Shown here one piece after another: positions 31,827-42,308 of a DNA stretch of 64,000 bases. Numbering within the stretch: the first letter of the stretch is position 1; every line of letters starts with the position of its first letter. Origin of the DNA: Chloroflexota bacterium (lineage in GTDB: Bacteria; Chloroflexota; Anaerolineae; Anaerolineales; Villigracilaceae); contig JACRBI010000043.1 in NCBI GenBank assembly GCA_016234495.1, positions 62,001 to 126,000 on the forward strand, read 5' to 3'. The notes below the pieces were generated by a model that saw only the letters and a list, made by a program, of their open reading frames with translations, was not told the origin of the DNA and did not search any database. The position numbers and the translations under genes are program-made.

Positions 31827-32222
31827 TTATTCCACGAGGTCGTCGCCAGCTTCGCCAAGTCCATACACACCGGCTTTCAAGACCTTGAGCGAGAGAAGCG
31901 CGCACTTCAAGCGCACCGGCCCGAGGTCAATGCCCAACAGTTCAAGCACCGAGGCTTTATTGAGCTTCTTCACTTCTTCAAGCGGCTTGCCAATAATGGA
32001 TTCTATTAACAAGTCTGCAGAGGCTTGCGAGATGGCGCAGCCATGACCATCGAATCGCGCATCAGACACGCGGCCATCAGCATCCACTCGCAGGTCAATT
32101 TGGATGTGGTCGCCGCACAACGGGTTATTATCCGCGAATGAAATGTCATGCGGGTCAAGCTTGCCGCGGTAGGCTGGGTTTTTGTAGTGTTCAATAATGA
32201 CTTCGCGATAAAGATCGTCCAT
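31827..32222 (-). CDS. sufU: Fe-S cluster scaffold / sulfur-transfer protein SufU
   Basis: The start at 32222 (GGAGCAATC upstream) is preferred to a longer frame reaching into the repeat. The 131-aa protein has Cys in NNPLCGDHI, GHGCAISQAS and VRLKCALLSL, with an Asp in LCGD, the zinc/cysteine set of SufU. Together with SufS it accepts persulfide sulfur. The longer insertion before the third Cys, typical of SufU as opposed to IscU, is present. It is in the suf operon. Confidence 0.94.
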   Translation of the reverse strand: MDDLYREVIIEHYKNPAYRGKLDPHDISFADNNPLCGDHIQIDLRVDADGRVSDARFDGHGCAISQASADLLIESIIGKPLEEVKKLNKASVLELLGIDLGPVRLKCALLSLKVLKAGVYGLGEAGDDLVE

Positions 32223-32236
32223 GATTGCTCCGCAAT

Positions 32237-32306
32237 AAAGTGTCAAAGTATCAATGTTTCCAAAGTGTCACTGACACCTTGAAACTTTAGACACCTTTGA
32301 CACTTT
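32237..32306. repeat. Palindrome between sufU and sufS
   Basis: Perfect 12-bp arms AAAGTGTCAAAG and CTTTGACACTTT enclose a second inverted pair (AAGTGTCA and TGACACCTT). It fills the whole gap inside the operon and overlaps nothing coding. Confidence 0.7.
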
Positions 32307-32308
32307 TA

Positions 32309-33535
32309 TTATCCAAACATTTCCTTCACTTTATAAATCCCATTCACGAGCAGATCCACTTCTTCCTTGGTGTTGTACAAATAAAAGGATGCGCGACTCG
32401 TGGCTGGGATTCCAAATTTTTCATGCAGCGGCTGCGCGCAGTGATGACCAGCCCTGACGGCGATCCCGTCTTTATCCAGAATCTGCGCCACATCATGCGG
32501 ATGCACACCGTCAAGGGTGAACGCCGCCACCCCGCCCTTTTTATCACTGGATGGGCCGAATAATTTCACGCCAGGGATTTCCTCCAGCCGTTCAAGCGCG
32601 TAATCGGTGATCTCATGCTCGTGCGCTGCGATATTCTCCATGCCCATCTTTGTCAGGTAATCGACAGCGGCGCCAAAACCGACAGCCTCTGCAATGGCGG
32701 GAGTGCCGGCCTCGAATTTATGCGGCAATGTATTCGGGCGGAACGATCGCAGTTTCACTTCCTTGATCATGTCGCCACCGCCCAGGAACGGGGGCATGGA
32801 TTCGAGCAATGCGGCTTTCCCGTACAATGCGCCGATGCCTGTCGGGCCGCACATTTTGTGCGCGGAGAATGCGTAAAAATCCGCGTCGAGGGCTTGCACA
32901 TCGACTGTCAAATGCGGAACGGATTGCGCGCCGTCCACCAGCGCGATTGCGCCTGCCTCGTGCGCCAGGCGGATGATCTCAGCTGTTGGGTTGATCGTCC
33001 CCAAAACGTTGGACATGTGCGTAAACGAGGCCAGCTTCGGGCGGCGGTCAAGAAGCGATTTGTACGCCTCAAGATCGAGCAGACCGTCTTCCGTCACAGG
33101 GATAAATTCCAATTCGATGCCGCGTTCCGCTTGAAGCATGTGCCACGGGACAAGGTTGCTGTGATGTTCCATCTCTGTCAGAATAACAAGATCGCCTTGT
33201 TTTAAGTTTGCACGCGCCCAGCTATAAGCCACAAGGTTGATCGACTCGGTTGTGTTGCGGGTGTAAATGATCTGCCGCGCAGATTCAGCGTTGATGAATT
33301 TCGCGATCTTTTCACGCGCCTCTTCATACATCGCAGTCGATTCCTCGGCAAGCGTGTGAACGCCACGATGAATGTTCGCATTGGACATGCGATAAAAATC
33401 ATCCATGGCTTGAATTACTGCCAGCGGCTTTTGCGATGTAGCTGTTGAATCCAAATACGTCAGGCGCACACCCGCGCTGGTTTCGCGTTCGAGGATGGGA
33501 AAGTCTTTTCGTATTTCAGCAACGTTAAGTTTCAT
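32309..33535 (-). CDS. sufS: Cysteine desulfurase SufS
   Basis: A 408-aa PLP enzyme that takes sulfur from cysteine for Fe-S assembly. The PLP lysine is in YAFSAHKMCGPTGIG, with TRNTTESINLVAYSW near the cofactor phosphate. The active-site Cys is in VRAGHHCAQPL, the type II (SufS/CsdA) form, and the C-terminus has ASFYLYNTKEEVD. Its start abuts the stop of the basic protein upstream in the operon. Confidence 0.96.
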   Translation of the reverse strand: MKLNVAEIRKDFPILERETSAGVRLTYLDSTATSQKPLAVIQAMDDFYRMSNANIHRGVHTLAEESTAMYEEAREKIAKFINAESARQIIYTRNTTESINLVAYSWARANLKQGDLVILTEMEHHSNLVPWHMLQAERGIELEFIPVTEDGLLDLEAYKSLLDRRPKLASFTHMSNVLGTINPTAEIIRLAHEAGAIALVDGAQSVPHLTVDVQALDADFYAFSAHKMCGPTGIGALYGKAALLESMPPFLGGGDMIKEVKLRSFRPNTLPHKFEAGTPAIAEAVGFGAAVDYLTKMGMENIAAHEHEITDYALERLEEIPGVKLFGPSSDKKGGVAAFTLDGVHPHDVAQILDKDGIAVRAGHHCAQPLHEKFGIPATSRASFYLYNTKEEVDLLVNGIYKVKEMFG

Positions 33536-34224: not shown

Positions 34225-35556
34225 CTACGCCGACAGTTTTTCCTGTATCGCCTGCTGGAATCTTTCTCGCACACCTTCAAATGGGATGCGCTGCATGATC
34301 GGGTCGAAGAAGCCCTCCACCACCAAGCGTTCCGCATCGGCCTGAGGAATGCCGCGGCTCTTGAGATAGAACAATGGCTCTTTTTCCAACTTGCCAACTG
34401 TCGCGCCATGTGTACAGCGGACGTCATCTGCAAGAATCTCCAGGCCGGGAATCGAATCAGCGCGGGCTTGATCGTCCAGCACAAGATTGCGGTTAGCCTG
34501 ATAGCCGTCTGTTTTTTGCGCACCCGGGGCAACATAGATCATCCCCTGCCACACGGAACGGCTTTTGCCTTTCAACGCGCCTTTGAACAACAAGTCGCTG
34601 GTGGTGTGCGGAGCGAGGTGATTCTGCTGGGTATCGTGGTCGAGGTGCTGGAGTCCGTCTGTGAAGTAGAAACCTGACATGCGTCCCTGCGCCCCTTCGC
34701 CAGCGAGATCGAGGTCTGAGAAATTTTTCGTCAGCCGCGAGCCAACTGCGCCGAAGATCCAATCGAGATTTCCGCCACGCTCAACACGGGCGCGTTCATG
34801 CGAGAAGTTCCAAACATGGCGTCCCCACGACTGCAATTCCACAAAGCGCAGGCTCGCATTTTGTCCAACGGAAATTTCAACAATGCCGGCGTGCATGGCA
34901 TGGCCGGTCTCATTTGGTGAAGCGGCTTCGTGGACGTAGGTCACGGATGCACCATCTTCCACATGGACAATCAAGTGGGAAAGGTGAGCGATGTCAGCGC
35001 CCGGTCCCCACAGCACGGAGTGAAGCGGAGTTTCCACCTGCACATTCTTTGGCACGTAGAGCAAAACGCCGTTGCCAGCCAAAGCAGATGCCAGCGCGGC
35101 AAATTTTCCGTCTTCGGGTTTGACAACTGCGCCAATCAATTTGTGGAGCAGTTCAGGGTGCTCACGCTCGGCGGTACGGATGTCAGTGAAGATTACGCCC
35201 TTCGAGACCAGAGCAGGATCGAGGTCCACGCGTGAGCCGCCAGGCATGAGGGTAATTTGTCCACCGTGCTGTTCACCCGTCAACGGCTGGAGCAGGTGGT
35301 CAGGCACGGCAGGCAAATCTTCGAATGCGCCTTCTTTCGGAATCTTAAAATCAGATGCGGGCAATAATCTTAAGTCGGTGCGGCGCCAGGCTTCATCGGT
35401 GGTGATGGGCATGGAAAATTTTGCAAACGCCTCCCAAGCCTTTACGCGGACATCGTTCAATACGCCGGCAGGAATGGAATCAGCGGTAAATAAAAATTCT
35501 TTTGTGGCTGAATCGCGCCGCGCGCGTGTGACTGTTACTTTTGGTTTCTCTTGCAT
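34225..35556 (-). CDS. sufD: Fe-S assembly scaffold subunit SufD
   Basis: The ATG at 35556 follows GGAAGAGACA; the longer frame is encoded by a repeat. The 443-aa protein has the SufBD right-handed beta helix, with HVEDGASVTYVHEA and TSDLLFKGALKGKSRSVWQGMIYV. The C-terminal CTHGATVGKLEKEPLFYLKSRGIPQADAERLVVEGFF matches SufD. With SufB and SufC it forms the scaffold complex on which clusters are built. Confidence 0.93.
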   Translation of the reverse strand: MQEKPKVTVTRARRDSATKEFLFTADSIPAGVLNDVRVKAWEAFAKFSMPITTDEAWRRTDLRLLPASDFKIPKEGAFEDLPAVPDHLLQPLTGEQHGGQITLMPGGSRVDLDPALVSKGVIFTDIRTAEREHPELLHKLIGAVVKPEDGKFAALASALAGNGVLLYVPKNVQVETPLHSVLWGPGADIAHLSHLIVHVEDGASVTYVHEAASPNETGHAMHAGIVEISVGQNASLRFVELQSWGRHVWNFSHERARVERGGNLDWIFGAVGSRLTKNFSDLDLAGEGAQGRMSGFYFTDGLQHLDHDTQQNHLAPHTTSDLLFKGALKGKSRSVWQGMIYVAPGAQKTDGYQANRNLVLDDQARADSIPGLEILADDVRCTHGATVGKLEKEPLFYLKSRGIPQADAERLVVEGFFDPIMQRIPFEGVRERFQQAIQEKLSA

Positions 35557-35564
35557 TGTCTCTT

Positions 35565-35622
35565 CCGTTTGAAAGTTTACAGGTTGAAAAGTTGGAACGT
35601 TCAAACCTGTGAACGTGATAAC
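35565..35622. repeat. Palindromic word repeat between sufB and sufD
   Basis: ACAGGTTGAA (35579-35588) pairs with TTCAAACCTGT (35600-35610), with further GTTTGAAAG and ATAACTTGC words at the edges. It accounts for the gap between the genes. Confidence 0.55.
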
Positions 35623-35625
35623 TTG

Positions 35626-37053
35626 CTAACCGATCGAGCCTTCCATTTGAAGTTGAATCAAGCGATTCATTTCGACGGCATATTCCATCGGCAGTTCCTT
35701 GACGAGCGGCTCGATGAAGCCAGAAACCACCATGCCCGTGGCTTCCTCTTCGGAAAGTCCGCGTGACATAAGATAGAAAAGCTGTTCCTCGCCGACCTTC
35801 GAGACCGATGCCTCGTGACCGATGGTGACATCATCTTCATCAATTTCAATGGACGGATAGGTGTCCGAGCGGGATTTCGGGTCGAGTAAAAGCGCATCGC
35901 AAACCACGTTGGATTTGACGCCCTTCGAGCCTTTGTACACTTTGACCAGTCCGCGATAGGAAGCGCGCCCGCCGTTTTTTGAAATGGATTTGGATGTGAT
36001 CTTGCTGGTGGTGTTCGGCGCGAAATGCACCATCTTCGAGCCCGCGTCTTGAATTTGACCTGCGCCAGCGAACGCCATCGAGAGCATTTCGCCGTGAGCG
36101 CCGGGTTCCATCAAATAGCAGGATGGATATTTCATTGTAAGTTTTGAGCCGAGGTTGGCATCCACCCATTCGTGCGTGCCGTTTGCAAATACTTTTGCGC
36201 GCTGGGTTACAAGGTTGAAGACGTTGGTTGACCAGTTTTGAATGGTCGAGTAACGCGAGCGAGCGCCCTGCTTGACCACGATCTCGATCACACCGGAATG
36301 GAAAGAGTTGGTTGTATATTGCGGCGCGGTGCAGCCTTCGACATAATGTACAGAAGCGCCTTCATCAACGATGATGAGCGTGCGCTCAAATTGACCGACA
36401 TTGGCGGTGTTCAACCGGAAATACGCCTGCAAGGGCAAATCTACTTTGACGCCTTTGGGGACGTACACGAACGAACCGCCTGACCAGACTGCGCTGTTCA
36501 ACGCGGCAAATTTATTATCTTCGATCGGGACAACAGTGCCAAAATACTCGCGGAACAGATCAGGGTATTGCTTGAGTCCATCTTCGATTGAAAGGAAGAT
36601 CACGCCCTGCTTTTCAAGATGCTCCAGAATGGAGTGATACACCATCTCTGATTCATATTGAGCGCCAACTCCCGCTAAAAATTTCTGCTCAGCTTCGGGA
36701 ATGCCTAATTTATTGAAGGTGTTCTTGATGTCATCGGGAACATTGTCCCAATTCTTTTCGCTTTTCTCGGTCGGCTTGACGTAATAAAAAATATTATCGA
36801 GGTCAAGGTCGTTTAGTTCCGGCCCCCAGTTCGGCATGGGTCGCGCCATGTAATGCTCGAAAGCCTTTAAGCGAAAATCAAGCATCCACTGCGGCTCACC
36901 CTTCATGCGCGAAATATTTTCAACAACCCCGCGGCTCAAGCCTCTTTCTGACTTGAAAACATAATTGTCATCGCGGTCGTGGAAACCGTATTTGTAATCG
37001 CCAATTTCATCGAGGATTTTTGCGTCCTCATTAAGTTTAGTATCTTCAGCCAT
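35626..37053 (-). CDS. sufB: Fe-S assembly scaffold subunit SufB
   Basis: A 475-aa scaffold protein. It shows YKYGFHDRD near the start, [48 protein letters not shown], and the C-terminal [34 protein letters not shown], all typical of SufB. Clusters form at the SufB-SufD interface. It follows sufC in the operon with a palindrome in the 75-bp gap. Confidence 0.97.
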
Positions 37054-37078: not shown

Positions 37079-37131
37079 GTACACCAAGGGCACGAAGGAA
37101 AGTCATTTAACCTTTGTTTACTTCGTGTTTA
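37079..37131. repeat. Imperfect palindrome, family C, at the sufC 3' end
   Basis: GTACACCAAGGGCACGAAGG is complementary with gaps to CCTTTGTTTACTTCGTGTTT. It overlaps the sufC stop codon and fills most of the gap to sufB. Confidence 0.6.
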
Positions 37132-37899
37132 AACAACCTCTTCGTACTTCTCGCGCACCCAATCATAGCCGTGTTCTTCGAGATGCAGCGCAAGGTCAGG
37201 TCCGCCCGATTCGACGATCCGCCCATCGAGCATGATGTGGACAAAATTCGGTTTGATGTAATTCAACAGACGCTGATAATGCGTGATGACCAGCACCCCA
37301 AGATCAGGTCCAGAAAGAGCATTGACTCCTTCGGAGACGATCCGCAGGGCGTCGATATCCAGCCCTGAATCTGTCTCATCCAAAATGGCAATCTCAGGCT
37401 TGAGAGCAGCCATCTGCAAAATTTCGGCGCGCTTCTTTTCGCCGCCGGAGAAGCCGTCATTCAGATAACGCCCGGCAAAAGCATGATCCATCTTGAGCGT
37501 ATCCATCTTTTCCTTGAGCATCTTGCGGAACTCGAGGATGGGCAGACCCTTATCTTCGGGGTTGACCGCGCGGCGGCGGGCATTTAATGCCGAACGCAGG
37601 AAGTTTGCCACGGTCACGCCCGGAATGGCGACGGGGTACTGAAACGCCAAAAATATGCCGGCGCGTGAGCGTTCGTCTGGTTCGAGTTCCAGGACATTTT
37701 GCCCCTTGAAAACGATCTCGCCTTCGGTTACTGTGTAATTCGGATGCCCCATGAGTGTGTAAGCCAGCGTGGACTTCCCCGTTCCGTTCGGCCCCATGAT
37801 GGCGTGGATTTCGCCCTGTTTAATGGTCAACGAGAGACCTTTGAGAATTTCCTTGTCTTCAATGCTAACGTGCAAGTTCTTTATTTCAAGCTGCGACAT
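37129..37899 (-). CDS. sufC: Fe-S assembly ATPase SufC
   Basis: A 256-aa ABC-type ATPase. Walker A is GPNGTGKST, the signature is [13 protein letters not shown], Walker B is [12 protein letters not shown] with the Asp of the D-loop, and the H-motif His lies in VITHYQR. It powers the SufBCD complex. First gene of the minus-strand suf operon; a consensus promoter lies about 55 bp upstream of the ATG. Confidence 0.97.
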
Positions 37900-37954: not shown

Positions 37955-37983
37955 ATTATAGCAAGGAAGGGCTGAATTGTCAA
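37955..37983 (-). promoter_or_regulatory. Consensus promoter for sufC
   Basis: On the minus strand TTGACA (37978-37983), a 17-bp spacer and TATAAT (37955-37960) match the sigma-70-type consensus exactly. A leader of roughly 45-50 nt to the sufC ATG would follow. The -35 touches the operator-like sequence at 37983-38010. Confidence 0.85.
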
Positions 37984-38010
37984 ATATTTATGATATTTTT
38001 CTAGTATATT
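37983..38010. promoter_or_regulatory. Putative SufR operator, copy 1
   Basis: A 28-bp AT-rich sequence (begins AATATTTATGATATTT, ends CTAGTATATT) with imperfect dyad symmetry. It matches 27 of 28 positions with the copy at 41255-41282, in the same orientation. It abuts the sufC -35. The SufR-like regulator encoded nearby is the obvious candidate binder. Confidence 0.7.
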
Positions 38011-38121
38011 CAAGGTGGATGGCTTTTCCGCTCGCGTTTAACCCACTTTCGCAATGGCAATCTGCCGTAAATGCACTAAACTTGGGCTGGTTATAAGCCA
38101 AATTTTACAACAGGTGAACAA

Positions 38122-41100
38122 ATGAAATTGCCCCGCTTCCAAATTAAACTCCTTCACTGGCTTGCCATTATTTCGGTCTGGCTCACCGGCACAGCCCTGC
38201 TTGCCCGCTCATCGAGCAATGCCGCCGCCCAAACATCAAACATCGTCTTTGCGGTGATCGGCGATTTTGGCGACGCAGGGCAGCCGGAAGCGGACGTTGC
38301 CAGCCTCGTAAAAAGCTGGAATCCGAGTTTTATCATTACGGTCGGCGACAACAACTACCCAGACGGAGCCGCCAGCACAGTTGACCAAAACATCGGGCAG
38401 TATTATCACGATTATATTTTTAAATACAGCGGCAAGTTTGGAAGCGGCTCGGCAGTGAATCGGTTTTTCCCCGCGCTGGGCAACCATGACTGGGATCAAA
38501 ACAACGGCAGGCAGCAGGAACTCTACTTCACATTGCCCGGCAACGAAAGGTATTATGACTTTACACAGGGACCGCTGCACTTCTTCGTCCTCAACAGCAA
38601 TGCCACGGAGCCGGATGGGATCACCGTCGATTCAAAACAAGCCAAATGGCTGAAAAGCGGACTGGCAGCTTCCACGTCAAAATTCGATATTGTCGTTATG
38701 CACCACCCGCCTTATTCGTCAGGCAGGCACGGCTCCACCAAGGCGATACAATGGCCGTTCAAACTCTGGGGCGCAGAAGCAGTCCTCGCGGGGCATGACC
38801 ATCTTTATGAAAGGCTGCTTGTTGACGGGTTGCCTTATTTCGTGAACGGGATCGGCGGGGCAGAGAAATTATATTATTTTCAAAGCGCGCTGCCCGAAAG
38901 CAAAATCCGCTATAACCAGGATTACGGAGCCATGCGGGTTGAAGCCAGCAGCCAAAGCATGAAGTTTCAACTTTACACGCGGGCGGGAATTCTGATCGAC
39001 GAATACACGATCGGGACTACGCCGCCAGTTGTCTCGTCCATCCTGCGAGTCAACGCCAACCCGGCAAACTCTCCCAGCGTGGATTTTGCCGTCACATTTT
39101 CAGAAGCAGTTAGCGGCGTGGATGTGACCGACTTCAATCTCACTGCGACAAATCCAACAGGCGCATCAATCCTGACTGTGAGCGGGTACGGCAGCCGGTA
39201 CATTATCTCCGCTGCTACCGGCCCCGGCGACAACAGCCTGCGCCTCGACCTGGTGGACAATGACAGCATCACGAACAGCCTCGGCGTAAAACTGGGCGAT
39301 GCGGGAATTGGAAATGGCAATTATGCGAGCGGCGAAACTTACTCAATTGATAAAACGCCGCCATCTGTGATTTCGATCATACGCGCAAGCGCCAGCCCCA
39401 CCAACGCCGCGAGTTTGGATTTCGCTGTCACTTTTTCAGAATCAGTCTCAGGCGTGGATGTTTCCGACTTTAACCTCCTCAGCAATTCCGGGGCGTCCAT
39501 TAACGGAACCAGCGGCACGGGAAATATTTACACTGTCAGCGTAAATACTGCCATCAGCACCGACTCGCTGCGGCTTGATTTTGCTGACGACAATAGCGTG
39601 GCCGACCTTGCAGGAAATAAAATGGGCGGCGCGGGAAACTTTTCGAGCGGCGAAACCTACACAGTAGACAGAACTGCTCCCAGCGTGACATCCATCGTGC
39701 GCGCGAGTCCCAGCCCGACCACTGCCTCAAGTGTTGATTTTCTTGTCACATTCTCCGAGCCAGTATTGGGGCTGGATTCATTCGATTTTAAATTGACGGC
39801 GGAAAATTTAAGTGGAGCAAGCAAGGCTTCGATCGGCAGTGTGAACGGCGCCGGGAACGCTTTCACCGTCACCGTGAACACCGACCTGACCGACGACACA
39901 CTTCGGCTTGATTTGACTGACAATGACAGCGTCACTGATTTGTTGGGCAACGCCCTGGGCGGCTCTTTCAGCAGCGGCGAAATTTACCAAATGGATAAAT
40001 CTGCGCCGAGCGTGACCTCGATCATTCGTGCCAGCCCAAACCCATCCAGCTCAACGAGCGTGGATTTCATCGTCACGTTCTCTGAATCTGTTGCTGGCGT
40101 GGATGTTTCAGATTTCAATTTGAGCACATCGAATATCAGCGGCGCATCGATCAGCGGCGTGGACAGTTTCGATCCATTTTATGTTGTGTCTGTCAACACC
40201 GGAAATGGCGATGGCACACTGCGGCTCGACCTGATTGACGATGACAGCATTGTCCACGGGAACAGCCTCGGCGGCGCAGGCTTGGGAAACGGAAATTTTG
40301 TCAGCGGCGAAATCTATACGATCGACAAAACTCCGCCGGTCGTTACTTCGATCATTCGCGCGAGCGCAAACCCATCCAACTCTGTCAGCGTGGATTTCAT
40401 CGTCACTTTTTCAGAATCAGTTTCAGGCGTCGACTCGACCGATTTCAGTGTGACCGCTGAAAATATCAGCAGGGCATCCATCCTCGGCGTGAAAGGATTC
40501 GATCCGTTTTATATCGTCTCGGTCAATACAGGTATCGGCACAGGGACTCTCCGCCTTGACCTGGTGGATGATGACAGCATTGCGGATAAGGCAAATAACA
40601 AAATAGGCGGCAGCGATTCTGGCAATGGGGCTTTCACCGCTGGAGAAATTTTCAACATCGCGAAAAGCCCGGTCAATTTCCCGCCGCCTATCAATCGCGA
40701 ACCCCGTAAAAACCTGCTGACAAACAACTCCAATATTTCTTTTTCCTGGTCGCCAGTTCGAGGCGCGCTGGCATATGAACTGATGCTCGCGTCGGACGCA
40801 AATTTCAATAATTTGATTTTTAGCCGCGTGGTCGACGGGTCATCCTTCACCGCATCCGCGCCATTTGACGGGAAATTTTTCTGGCATGTCCGCGCTTACA
40901 ATTCAAGTTTCCAGGCGGGCAGGTTTAGCGCGACACAATCTTTCACTGTGGATACAACCCCGCCGGCAGCGCCGACCCTTGTCAGCCCAACCAACAACAG
41001 CATAACCAGCAGAAGACCAAATCTCAAATGGAATGCGGTCGGAGAGGCGGTAAACTACCAGGTCGAAGTTGACGATAACCCAAATTTCAACAGTCCCGAA

Positions 41101-41238
41101 TTTACTTCCATTAAGCGCGGCGTTTCTATTCGGACATCGTCACTCGCAAAAAAGGTTTATTTTTGGAGGGTACGCGCAAAAGATGCAGCTGGAAATTGGA
41201 GCGATTGGTCTGAAATTTTTACATTTATAGCGCGATAG
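38122..41238 (+). CDS. Secreted purple-acid-phosphatase-like metallophosphoesterase with Ig-like repeats
   Basis: The 1038-aa protein has a signal peptide (to about residue 36). A calcineurin-like phosphoesterase domain (about 40-295) has all metal motifs: GDFGD, GDNNYPDG, GNHDWD, MHHPPYS and GHDHLYER. Then come five tandem beta-sandwich repeats of about 105-110 residues, each opening with an I-R-A/V-x-x-x-P-x segment and VDFxVTFSExVxGxDxxDF. A C-terminal fibronectin-III-like pair follows from about residue 875 (SFSWSPVRGALAYEL, RPNLKWNAVGEAVNYQVEV). It acts outside the cell, probably on phosphate esters. AGGTGAACAA precedes the ATG. It splits the suf locus. Confidence 0.88.
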   Translation: MKLPRFQIKLLHWLAIISVWLTGTALLARSSSNAAAQTSNIVFAVIGDFGDAGQPEADVASLVKSWNPSFIITVGDNNYPDGAASTVDQNIGQYYHDYIFKYSGKFGSGSAVNRFFPALGNHDWDQNNGRQQELYFTLPGNERYYDFTQGPLHFFVLNSNATEPDGITVDSKQAKWLKSGLAASTSKFDIVVMHHPPYSSGRHGSTKAIQWPFKLWGAEAVLAGHDHLYERLLVDGLPYFVNGIGGAEKLYYFQSALPESKIRYNQDYGAMRVEASSQSMKFQLYTRAGILIDEYTIGTTPPVVSSILRVNANPANSPSVDFAVTFSEAVSGVDVTDFNLTATNPTGASILTVSGYGSRYIISAATGPGDNSLRLDLVDNDSITNSLGVKLGDAGIGNGNYASGETYSIDKTPPSVISIIRASASPTNAASLDFAVTFSESVSGVDVSDFNLLSNSGASINGTSGTGNIYTVSVNTAISTDSLRLDFADDNSVADLAGNKMGGAGNFSSGETYTVDRTAPSVTSIVRASPSPTTASSVDFLVTFSEPVLGLDSFDFKLTAENLSGASKASIGSVNGAGNAFTVTVNTDLTDDTLRLDLTDNDSVTDLLGNALGGSFSSGEIYQMDKSAPSVTSIIRASPNPSSSTSVDFIVTFSESVAGVDVSDFNLSTSNISGASISGVDSFDPFYVVSVNTGNGDGTLRLDLIDDDSIVHGNSLGGAGLGNGNFVSGEIYTIDKTPPVVTSIIRASANPSNSVSVDFIVTFSESVSGVDSTDFSVTAENISRASILGVKGFDPFYIVSVNTGIGTGTLRLDLVDDDSIADKANNKIGGSDSGNGAFTAGEIFNIAKSPVNFPPPINREPRKNLLTNNSNISFSWSPVRGALAYELMLASDANFNNLIFSRVVDGSSFTASAPFDGKFFWHVRAYNSSFQAGRFSATQSFTVDTTPPAAPTLVSPTNNSITSRRPNLKWNAVGEAVNYQVEVDDNPNFNSPEFTSIKRGVSIRTSSLAKKVYFWRVRAKDAAGNWSDWSEIFTFIAR

Positions 41239-41254
41239 CCCAAGTCCCACATTC

Positions 41255-41282
41255 AATATTTATGATATTTATCTAGTATATT
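41255..41282. promoter_or_regulatory. Putative SufR operator, copy 2
   Basis: The second 28-bp copy, differing from copy 1 by one base (ATCTAG for TTCTAG in the centre). It overlaps the sufR -35 by two bases, so binding would affect sufR transcription (autoregulation). Confidence 0.7.
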
Positions 41283-41309
41283 GACAATCCATATTGATTT
41301 GAGTATACT
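41281..41309 (+). promoter_or_regulatory. Consensus promoter for sufR, leaderless
   Basis: TTGACA (41281-41286), a 17-bp spacer and TATACT (41304-41309). The ATG at 41317 is 7 nt beyond the -10, where transcription would begin, and no ribosome-binding site fits. Confidence 0.82.
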
Positions 41310-41316
41310 CTTCGGC

Positions 41317-41943
41317 ATGAAATCAACGCGAGACAGGATTTTACAAACTTTATTGCACAAACCACGCTCCACCATCAATGTACTAGCTGAAGCTGTGGGC
41401 ATAAATCCCATTTCTGTGCGCCATCACTTGACGAACCTTCAAATGGAAGGTTTGGTTGAAGGTCAGGAGGAAAGGCACGGCGTGGGACGTCCACGCCTGG
41501 TTTATGTTCTGACCAACGAAGGTATGGAGCGCTTCCCGACACGGTACATGCAGTTGACGACACGGTTACTGTCACAGATGAAGGAAACCATGTCCGGGCC
41601 GGTTGTGGCGAATTTGTTCAACCAGATCGCCGAAGACCTTGCCAGTCATTACTCCAGTGATTTGCAGGGGTTGAGCATGGAGGAACGCCTTGATCTCGTT
41701 CAGGAAATGCTGGCGCAGGAGGGTTTTACTGTTGAATGGGAAAAAAAGGGTGGTCAATATGAAATACGCGAAATCTCCTGCCCATACTATCAAATCGGCG
41801 TGGCGCACCCTGAAGTCTGCACAGTTGACCAGACCCTGATCTCCAAGATGCTGGCGCTGCCTGCCAATAAAGTCCAATGCATCTTAAGCGGCGGCGCACA
41901 TTGTACCTACGTTGTCTCGCCTGTGGAAGTAAAAACCAATTAA
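41317..41943 (+). CDS. sufR: SufR-like Fe-S-sensing transcriptional regulator
   Basis: The start at 41317 is chosen because the TTG at 41281 lies in the promoter. The 208-aa protein has a winged helix at residues 1-65 (TINVLAEAVGINPISVRHHLTNL, RHGVGRPRLVYVLT wing) and four Cys in the C-terminal half (155, 168, 188, 196: C-x12-C-x19-C-x7-C), suited to bind a [4Fe-4S] cluster. SufR proteins repress suf genes when they carry a cluster. It is followed 17 bp later by sufT, and its operator-like copy is shared with sufC. Confidence 0.88.
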   Translation: MKSTRDRILQTLLHKPRSTINVLAEAVGINPISVRHHLTNLQMEGLVEGQEERHGVGRPRLVYVLTNEGMERFPTRYMQLTTRLLSQMKETMSGPVVANLFNQIAEDLASHYSSDLQGLSMEERLDLVQEMLAQEGFTVEWEKKGGQYEIREISCPYYQIGVAHPEVCTVDQTLISKMLALPANKVQCILSGGAHCTYVVSPVEVKTN

Positions 41944-41960: not shown

Positions 41961-42308
41961 ATGAGTGACTCTGAAGTAAAAGAAATCCAGTGGACGATCC
42001 ACACAACTCATCCAGAACGCGTGCAGGAAGTGCGCGCAAAACTTTCCGAGGTGGTGGATCCTGAAATTGGAATGACCATCATTCAGCTGGGACTGATCCG
42101 TGATGTCGAAATCGAAAATGGGATCGGCAGAATCAAGATGATCCTCACCACGCCGTTCTGCCCTTACGGCCCCGCAATGATTGAGATGACAAAAGCAAAG
42201 GCTGTGGAAGGACTCAACATGCCGGTCAATATTGAAATGGGCATGGAGATGTGGGATTTTTCGATGATGGAAGATCCGTCTGCTTTGGATTGGGGAATGT
42301 ACGCGTAA
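41961..42308 (+). CDS. sufT: SufT-like Fe-S maturation factor (DUF59/MIP18 family)
   Basis: The ATG at 41961 follows AAAAGGAATC. The 115-aa product has the MIP18 core VRAKLSEVVDPEIGMTIIQLGLIRDVEI with the DPE motif and LTTPFCPYGPAM with the reactive Cys. SufT proteins help transfer Fe-S clusters to clients. Cotranscribed with sufR and closed by a terminator. Confidence 0.93.
   Translation: MSDSEVKEIQWTIHTTHPERVQEVRAKLSEVVDPEIGMTIIQLGLIRDVEIENGIGRIKMILTTPFCPYGPAMIEMTKAKAVEGLNMPVNIEMGMEMWDFSMMEDPSALDWGMYA

Follow-up and report, generated by a model that had tools for sequence, protein, structure and literature searches.

A 28-bp AT-rich sequence at the SUF locus of a Chloroflexota bacterium is likely the operator of a local SufR-like repressor, an ancestral site shared by sufC and sufR that was repeatedly doubled to leave a slot for cargo genes and was re-fused in some congeners. 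The locus lies in a 64,000-nucleotide stretch (contig JACRBI010000043.1, positions 62,001 to 126,000; hereafter the window) from a member of the family Villigracilaceae, class Anaerolineae. There, the sufC operon and a divergent sufR-like gene are separated by a phosphatase gene with one copy of the sequence on either side. In the ancestral state, the promoters of the sufC operon and sufR would have stood back to back, with a single operator between their -35 boxes gating both. Within the family this operator would have been doubled repeatedly, each core promoter keeping one copy, so that the gap between the copies could host other genes with neither promoter broken. The window would represent such an opened slot, into which a metallophosphatase most likely came in the genus ancestor, while several compact congeners most likely lost this cargo via recombination between the direct-repeat operators, which would exactly restore the shared form.

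The probable 28-bp operator and its promoters

The elements of the slot and its two borders in the window are:

37129..37899, minus strand: sufC (TIGR01978 above cut-off)
37955..37983, minus strand: sufC promoter TTGACA-17-TATAAT, overlapping operator copy 1
37983..38010, no strand assigned: operator copy 1, sufC side, T at position 17
38011..38121, plus strand: spacer from operator copy 1 to the phosphatase start, no partner-promoter remnant at p<0.05
38122..41238, plus strand: phosphatase (cargo), 1038 residues (Pfam Metallophos, Big_12, Big_5)
41255..41282, no strand assigned: operator copy 2, sufR side, A at position 17
41281..41309, plus strand: sufR promoter TTGACA-17-TATACT, overlapping operator copy 2
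41317..41943, plus strand: sufR-like regulator gene (TIGR02702 E 2e-22, below cut-off; Pfam HTH_24; Cys155/168/188/196)

The two copies form a direct repeat of 28 bp with 27 identical positions, the sole difference being T/A at position 17, and both they and the abutting promoters are as the original prediction had described them. On the minus strand, TTGACA (37983-37978) is followed by a 17-bp spacer and a TATAAT that ends at 37955; on the plus strand, TTGACA begins at 41281 and a TATACT, again after 17 bp, ends at 41309. Each operator overlaps its own -35 box by the first two bases of the latter, TT. Copy 2 can be written as the palindrome AATAT NNNN GATA TT TATC NNNN ATATT, in which TTTC replaces TATC in copy 1, and the family-wide consensus, AATATTTATGATATTTWTCTAGTATATT, is likewise an imperfect palindrome. 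None of 100 shuffled versions of the window gave a match to the 28-mer, and a search for further copies in the whole 4.1-Mb genome, as the original prediction had proposed, returned no operator beyond the two at up to three mismatches or with a looser pattern. The sufR ATG lies 7 bases downstream of the -10 box (window 41304-41319) and the distance from the operator to the aligned sufR start is 33-34 bp in 50/50 members of the genus; the sufR mRNA is therefore probably leaderless. On the other side of the slot, the spacer upstream of the phosphatase contains CTTTCGCAATGG (window 38046-38057), which by eye recurs in the corresponding spacer of G130 and G092 and, in less exact form, of G082, and which is possibly a promoter or leader element of the phosphatase itself.

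The family was sampled with 150 genomes, mostly draft metagenome-assembled genomes (MAGs), of which 145 had SufR-family matches and 137 strong SufC matches. Counts take in 130 of them; genomes with no orthologue, with partial genes or with sequence that was not fetched (e.g. G051, G061, G062, G068, G077, G109) were excluded. A site was accepted if it abutted a -35 box and had up to 9 mismatches. By this rule the operator was found in 129/129 sufR and 127/127 sufC upstream regions, against 0/645 letter-shuffled sufR upstreams. All sufC sites have at most 5 mismatches and 127 of the 129 sufR sites at most 6, the remaining two being G088 with 7 and G013 with 9, which is doubtful. The consensus (W allowed at position 17) is matched without mismatch by 51/127 sufC and 34/129 sufR sites. 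At a spacing of exactly 17, the -10 box is TATACT in 128/129 sufR promoters and TATAAT in 123/127 sufC promoters, so that operator and promoter are conserved as one unit.

The motif is also nearly exclusive to the suf genes. At up to three mismatches, the whole genomes of the genus hold one site in 16/16 shared-state and two in 31/31 separate-state members, and one site is found in 43/47 of all shared-state genomes, the other four having none at this threshold because their operator carries 4-5 mismatches. A reversed-pattern control over the 150 whole genomes gave 0 matches. From the sequences, the 28-mer is very probably a control switch of the SUF genes.

Away from suf, there are at least five sites with up to three mismatches, in five genomes; the second such site of G127 stands outside those placed. 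Two, from different genera, precede a superoxide dismutase-ferredoxin pair divergent from an EamA transporter (L258 1501-1528 in G019, 2 mismatches, pair assigned by Pfam; L261 1501-1528 in G006, 3 mismatches, by eye), and this pair is a candidate second SufR target. Another lies about 20 bp upstream of a lipoyl synthase (radical SAM) gene (L254 1501-1528 in G003, 3 mismatches), and two more, again from two genera, precede an M50 protease with CBS domains (L264 1501-1528 in G098 and L262 1501-1528 in G057, with 2 and 3 mismatches).

Shared and separate states and the cargo between them

Among the 126 genomes with both genes, 47 have a single operator between the two -35 boxes and 79 have a copy for each gene. 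The joined divergent sufC/sufR promoter that had been inferred from the window alone hence exists in 47/126 family genomes, and relatives do not always carry the phosphatase between sufC and sufR. In 34 of the 79 separate-state genomes both genes lie in one fetched stretch, with operators 44 bp to 18.3 kb apart (start to start), and in the other 45 sufR and sufC are far apart or on different contigs. Twelve doubles are closely spaced (44 to 504 bp start to start) and are possible intermediates or remnants; when 7 of these 12 spacers were compared with the fetched family loci by blastn, one weak cargo match was obtained, from G009 to a G054 locus (E 0.008).

The compact form extends beyond the family. 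From 93 non-family genomes with a match, 20 high-scoring SufR loci were surveyed, of which 5 had no sufC in reach and 1 a 2.6-kb gap, leaving 14 usable loci, each with sufC divergent and no more than 503 bp away. A back-to-back GTCAA-(28 or 37 AT-rich bases)-TTGAC was found between sufC and sufR in 13/14 of these, using a pattern without shuffle control. Because the back-to-back arrangement persists in other families of the class, the compact (shared) form is probably ancestral in the class. In family f35 (L234, L235, L237, L238, L244, L246, L247) the shared operator-like stretch is 37 bp long where f11, f34 and the family of the window have 28 bp, a difference of 9 bp or about one helical turn.

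Within the family the two states alternate on the trees. A quick-method tree of SufR and SufC from 126 genomes has 15 state changes, at least 9 of them forced by starred branches, and a suf DNA tree of 69 genomes (sufB available for 54/69, sufD for 36/69) has 10, at least 8 of them forced and 8 inside the genus. Of the near genera, g2, g8 and g14 are separate in 5/5 genomes, and g17 is shared in 13/17.

In separate operators, position 17 varies with the gene served. Copies serving only sufR have A in 81/82 cases (exception G082) and copies serving only sufC have T in 78/80 (exceptions G055, G088), while shared operators have T or A in 31 and 16 cases, respectively, with T in 16/16 of those in the genus. 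Whatever the direction in which events ran, this split reflects either a difference in function or a strong bias, and the one-base difference suggests that the two operators are differently tuned once separated. The original prediction had pictured a block insertion that duplicated the operator. Because the same 28-mer stands at sufR and sufC across the family, the 27/28 identity, common to sites all over it, reflects constraint on each operator rather than a recent duplication; it is ruled out as a date. The structural part of the prediction was right, but its timing is most likely wrong, the cargo gene being an old one.

The cargo of the window is predicted to be a purple-acid-phosphatase-like metallophosphoesterase: it matches PF00149 (Metallophos, E 8e-13), has immunoglobulin-like repeats, and its best PDB match is the purple acid phosphatase 1qhw (E 8e-8, residues 164-265). 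It looks secreted, as its hydrophobic N-terminus resembles a signal peptide by eye. Apart from it, the block contains only shorter frames on the opposite strand that overlap the phosphatase. An orthologue lies immediately upstream of sufR in 19/80 relatives, all of the same genus and from both of its deep clades, and many groups of the suf tree recur in a catalytic-domain tree (28 rows) when the two are compared by eye. The compact congeners (16/47 genus members with both genes) are nested among phosphatase-bearing ones, a pattern that suggests repeated loss with re-fusion, or else exchange of the slot. Most simply, the ancestor of the genus acquired the phosphatase in the slot, and it was later lost from the compact congeners; with regain excluded, the suf DNA tree calls for about nine losses, some of them on weakly supported branches. 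Two compact genomes, G100 and G126, still have a full-length copy of the phosphatase elsewhere.

Cargo differs between loci. Fourteen larger gaps, two of which also hold the phosphatase, were read for open reading frames, and ten proteins from nine gaps were submitted to Pfam. Within the genus, SLH/beta-propeller and SLH/GSDH (glucose/sorbosone dehydrogenase-like) proteins were found, and in other genera UbiA, subtilase, SH3, BNR, acyltransferase, ApbE and MauE; PMP/CARDB repeats were also among the results for these ten proteins. Two very similar 346-residue proteins are encoded immediately upstream of sufR in genera g5 and g8 with differing surroundings (L117 2227-3264 and L108 5819-6856), assigned to UbiA by eye for L117 and by Pfam for L108.

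The SufR-like regulator and known SufR systems

The protein encoded downstream of operator copy 2 scores E 2e-22 and 79.8 bits against TIGR02702 (SufR, cyanobacterial equivalog), below the curated cut-off of 178.8. It has a winged helix-turn-helix at its N-terminus (HTH_24, residues 7-48) and cysteines at positions 155, 168, 188 and 196 (spacings X12, X19 and X7). These do not match the cyanobacterial pattern C-X12-C-X13-C-X14-C (PMC8593673), but C155-X12-C168-X27-C196 has the same spacing as C203/C216/C244 of Mycobacterium tuberculosis Rv1460 (PMC6034842). Two features of SufR-like repressors in the wide sense, including Rv1460, are present, namely a winged helix-turn-helix and C-X12-C-X27-C. 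Such repressors also bind and repress suf and their own promoter, sensing through an Fe-S cluster; here a candidate binding site is conserved. Because its TIGR02702 score is far below the cut-off despite this resemblance, the winged helix-turn-helix and the Rv1460-type cysteine spacing, we label the predicted regulator SufR-like.

The regulator gene is followed by a sufT-like gene, and sufC by the remaining suf genes:

31827..32246, minus strand: sufU (TIGR01994 above cut-off; start codon uncertain)
32309..33535, minus strand: sufS (TIGR01979 above cut-off)
34225..35604, minus strand: sufD (TIGR01981 above cut-off)
35626..37053, minus strand: sufB (TIGR01980 above cut-off)
41961..42308, plus strand: sufT-like FeS_assembly_P gene, downstream of sufR (PF01883; TIGR02945 below cut-off)

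The sufT-like reading frame is open from 41877, and its conserved part starts near 41961, judged by the extent of matches in relatives.

Back-to-back divergent promoters in which one common repressor site governs both a regulator and its target are a general kind of arrangement. The family of the window would share this plan, but there the operator is single or double, with changes both ways likely. The same orientation is found in cyanobacteria, where sufR runs opposite to the suf operon and regulates both (PMC7058544). The cyanobacterial operator is CAAC-N6-GTTG (PMC8593673), whereas the family of the window has a 28-bp AT-rich palindrome that overlaps the -35 box or boxes and is either shared or doubled. 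The cyanobacterial SufR is a [4Fe-4S] repressor and autoregulator, and the window protein falls below the cut-off of its equivalog model. In M. tuberculosis, sufR is the first gene of the suf operon and is read the same way, unlike the divergent sufR of the window with its own operator; Rv1460 shares the C-X12-C-X27-C spacing, and its repressor transcript is leaderless (PMC6034842), as is probably the case here. For Synechocystis, the same paper describes two sites, that of sufBCDS having high affinity and that of sufR low affinity, which by analogy would fit two tuned copies. Among the matches listed (titles and abstracts), literature searches gave no paper on such an operator for SufR in Chloroflexi/Chloroflexota and nothing on this case for the evolution of shared operators.

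Weighing the proposed history

Several observations weigh against a doubling from one shared SufR site followed by re-fusion. CAAC-N6-GTTG is absent near suf, its 3 matches in the window being at chance level, and the operator is still present at sufC in G110, G051 and G005, three near-complete genomes that yielded no SufR orthologue (the assemblies may lack the gene). Contig breaks may account for the separation in many of the 45 genomes with the genes apart, these being draft MAGs. By genus, the separate state alone is found in 18/24, the shared state alone in 2 and both in 4, so that the family ancestor may already have been split. Parsimony counts cannot separate gain from loss, and G149 is placed differently in the two suf trees. 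In the phosphatase tree, G102 is discordant, as is G031 with G054, G122 and G123; given these rows and the shifting placement of G149, slot exchange between species could possibly mimic loss and gain. The inner flanks of the copies hold a remnant of the partner promoter at p<0.05 in only 6/162 cases, the best of which (G009, p 0.0004; G099, p 0.003) are lost after correction for 162 tests. Finally, re-fusion at random points should often leave A at position 17, so selection is needed to account for T in all 16 compact congeners.

Some of these points also bear on the rival that survives best, which we nevertheless regard as unlikely: each gene would have its own operator-promoter cassette, the two separated by rearrangement, with no re-fusion of repeats and with genus differences arising via exchange of the whole slot. 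The far-apart or different-contig genes in 45/130 genomes agree with it, as do the discordant phosphatase rows and the 18/24 genera with separate operators only, but a mere reunion of cassettes would not yield one operator flanked by -35 boxes, which is what the compact promoters are in 47/47 cases.

Less probable still is a 28-mer that serves not as a SufR operator but as a strong UP-element-like part of the promoter or as a binding site for some other (iron or redox) regulator. It is AT-rich, lies immediately upstream of the -35 box, is unlike the cyanobacterial SufR site and is kept at sufC in the three genomes where SufR was not found. It is also, however, an imperfect palindrome of operator size with 28 conserved positions, stands at sufR itself in 129/129 cases, is hardly found outside suf except at a few genes that include Fe-S or oxidative-stress genes, and differs in families whose SufR is just 34-42% identical.

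Improbable, too, is the simplest reading of the window and the one originally predicted, a lineage-specific insertion of a 3.2-kb block with target duplication, or transposition with a 28-bp target-site duplication. A compact ancestor, one part of that prediction, probably holds at class level, and the copies flank the block exactly with compact relatives at hand; an insertion peculiar to this genome does not hold, as 19 congeners from both deep clades have the same phosphatase at the same place and other genera have other genes there. Besides the phosphatase, the one frame of the block scanned for domains, there are only shorter frames that overlap it, copies conserved as operators family-wide give no date, and the difference at position 17 is systematic. 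The block ends carry no terminal inverted repeats (the closest candidate, an imperfect inverted pair of 14 nt at 38081 and 41002, lies well within the block), and a mobile-element target-site duplication was rejected, with no mobility gene seen in the block and cargo that varies between genera. Tandem duplication of the whole promoter is unsupported, the inner flanks being without a clear partner-promoter remnant.

In the shared-operator history that we prefer, SufR would be the bound protein and would repress both promoters from one or two sites, and we infer both the direction of single changes and the recombination mechanism. A wider idea, which we put forward as a tentative but serious possibility, is that the SufR operator acts as a reversible regulatory slot, repeatedly opened for unrelated genes and closed by recombination between the copies, so that SUF control switches between one shared and two tuned sites. 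Such a slot could reopen because the operator fills the whole space between the promoters and is tolerated as a direct repeat.

We thus propose a SufR operator for Chloroflexota, together with a natural series of divergent promoters, shared in some members and split in others, from one bacterial family. With this series it can be tested how one common site turns into two while control is kept, and whether one base sets autoregulation against control of the target, as the Synechocystis sites suggest. It also means that near-identical repeats around a gene can be conserved operators rather than the mark of a recent insertion.

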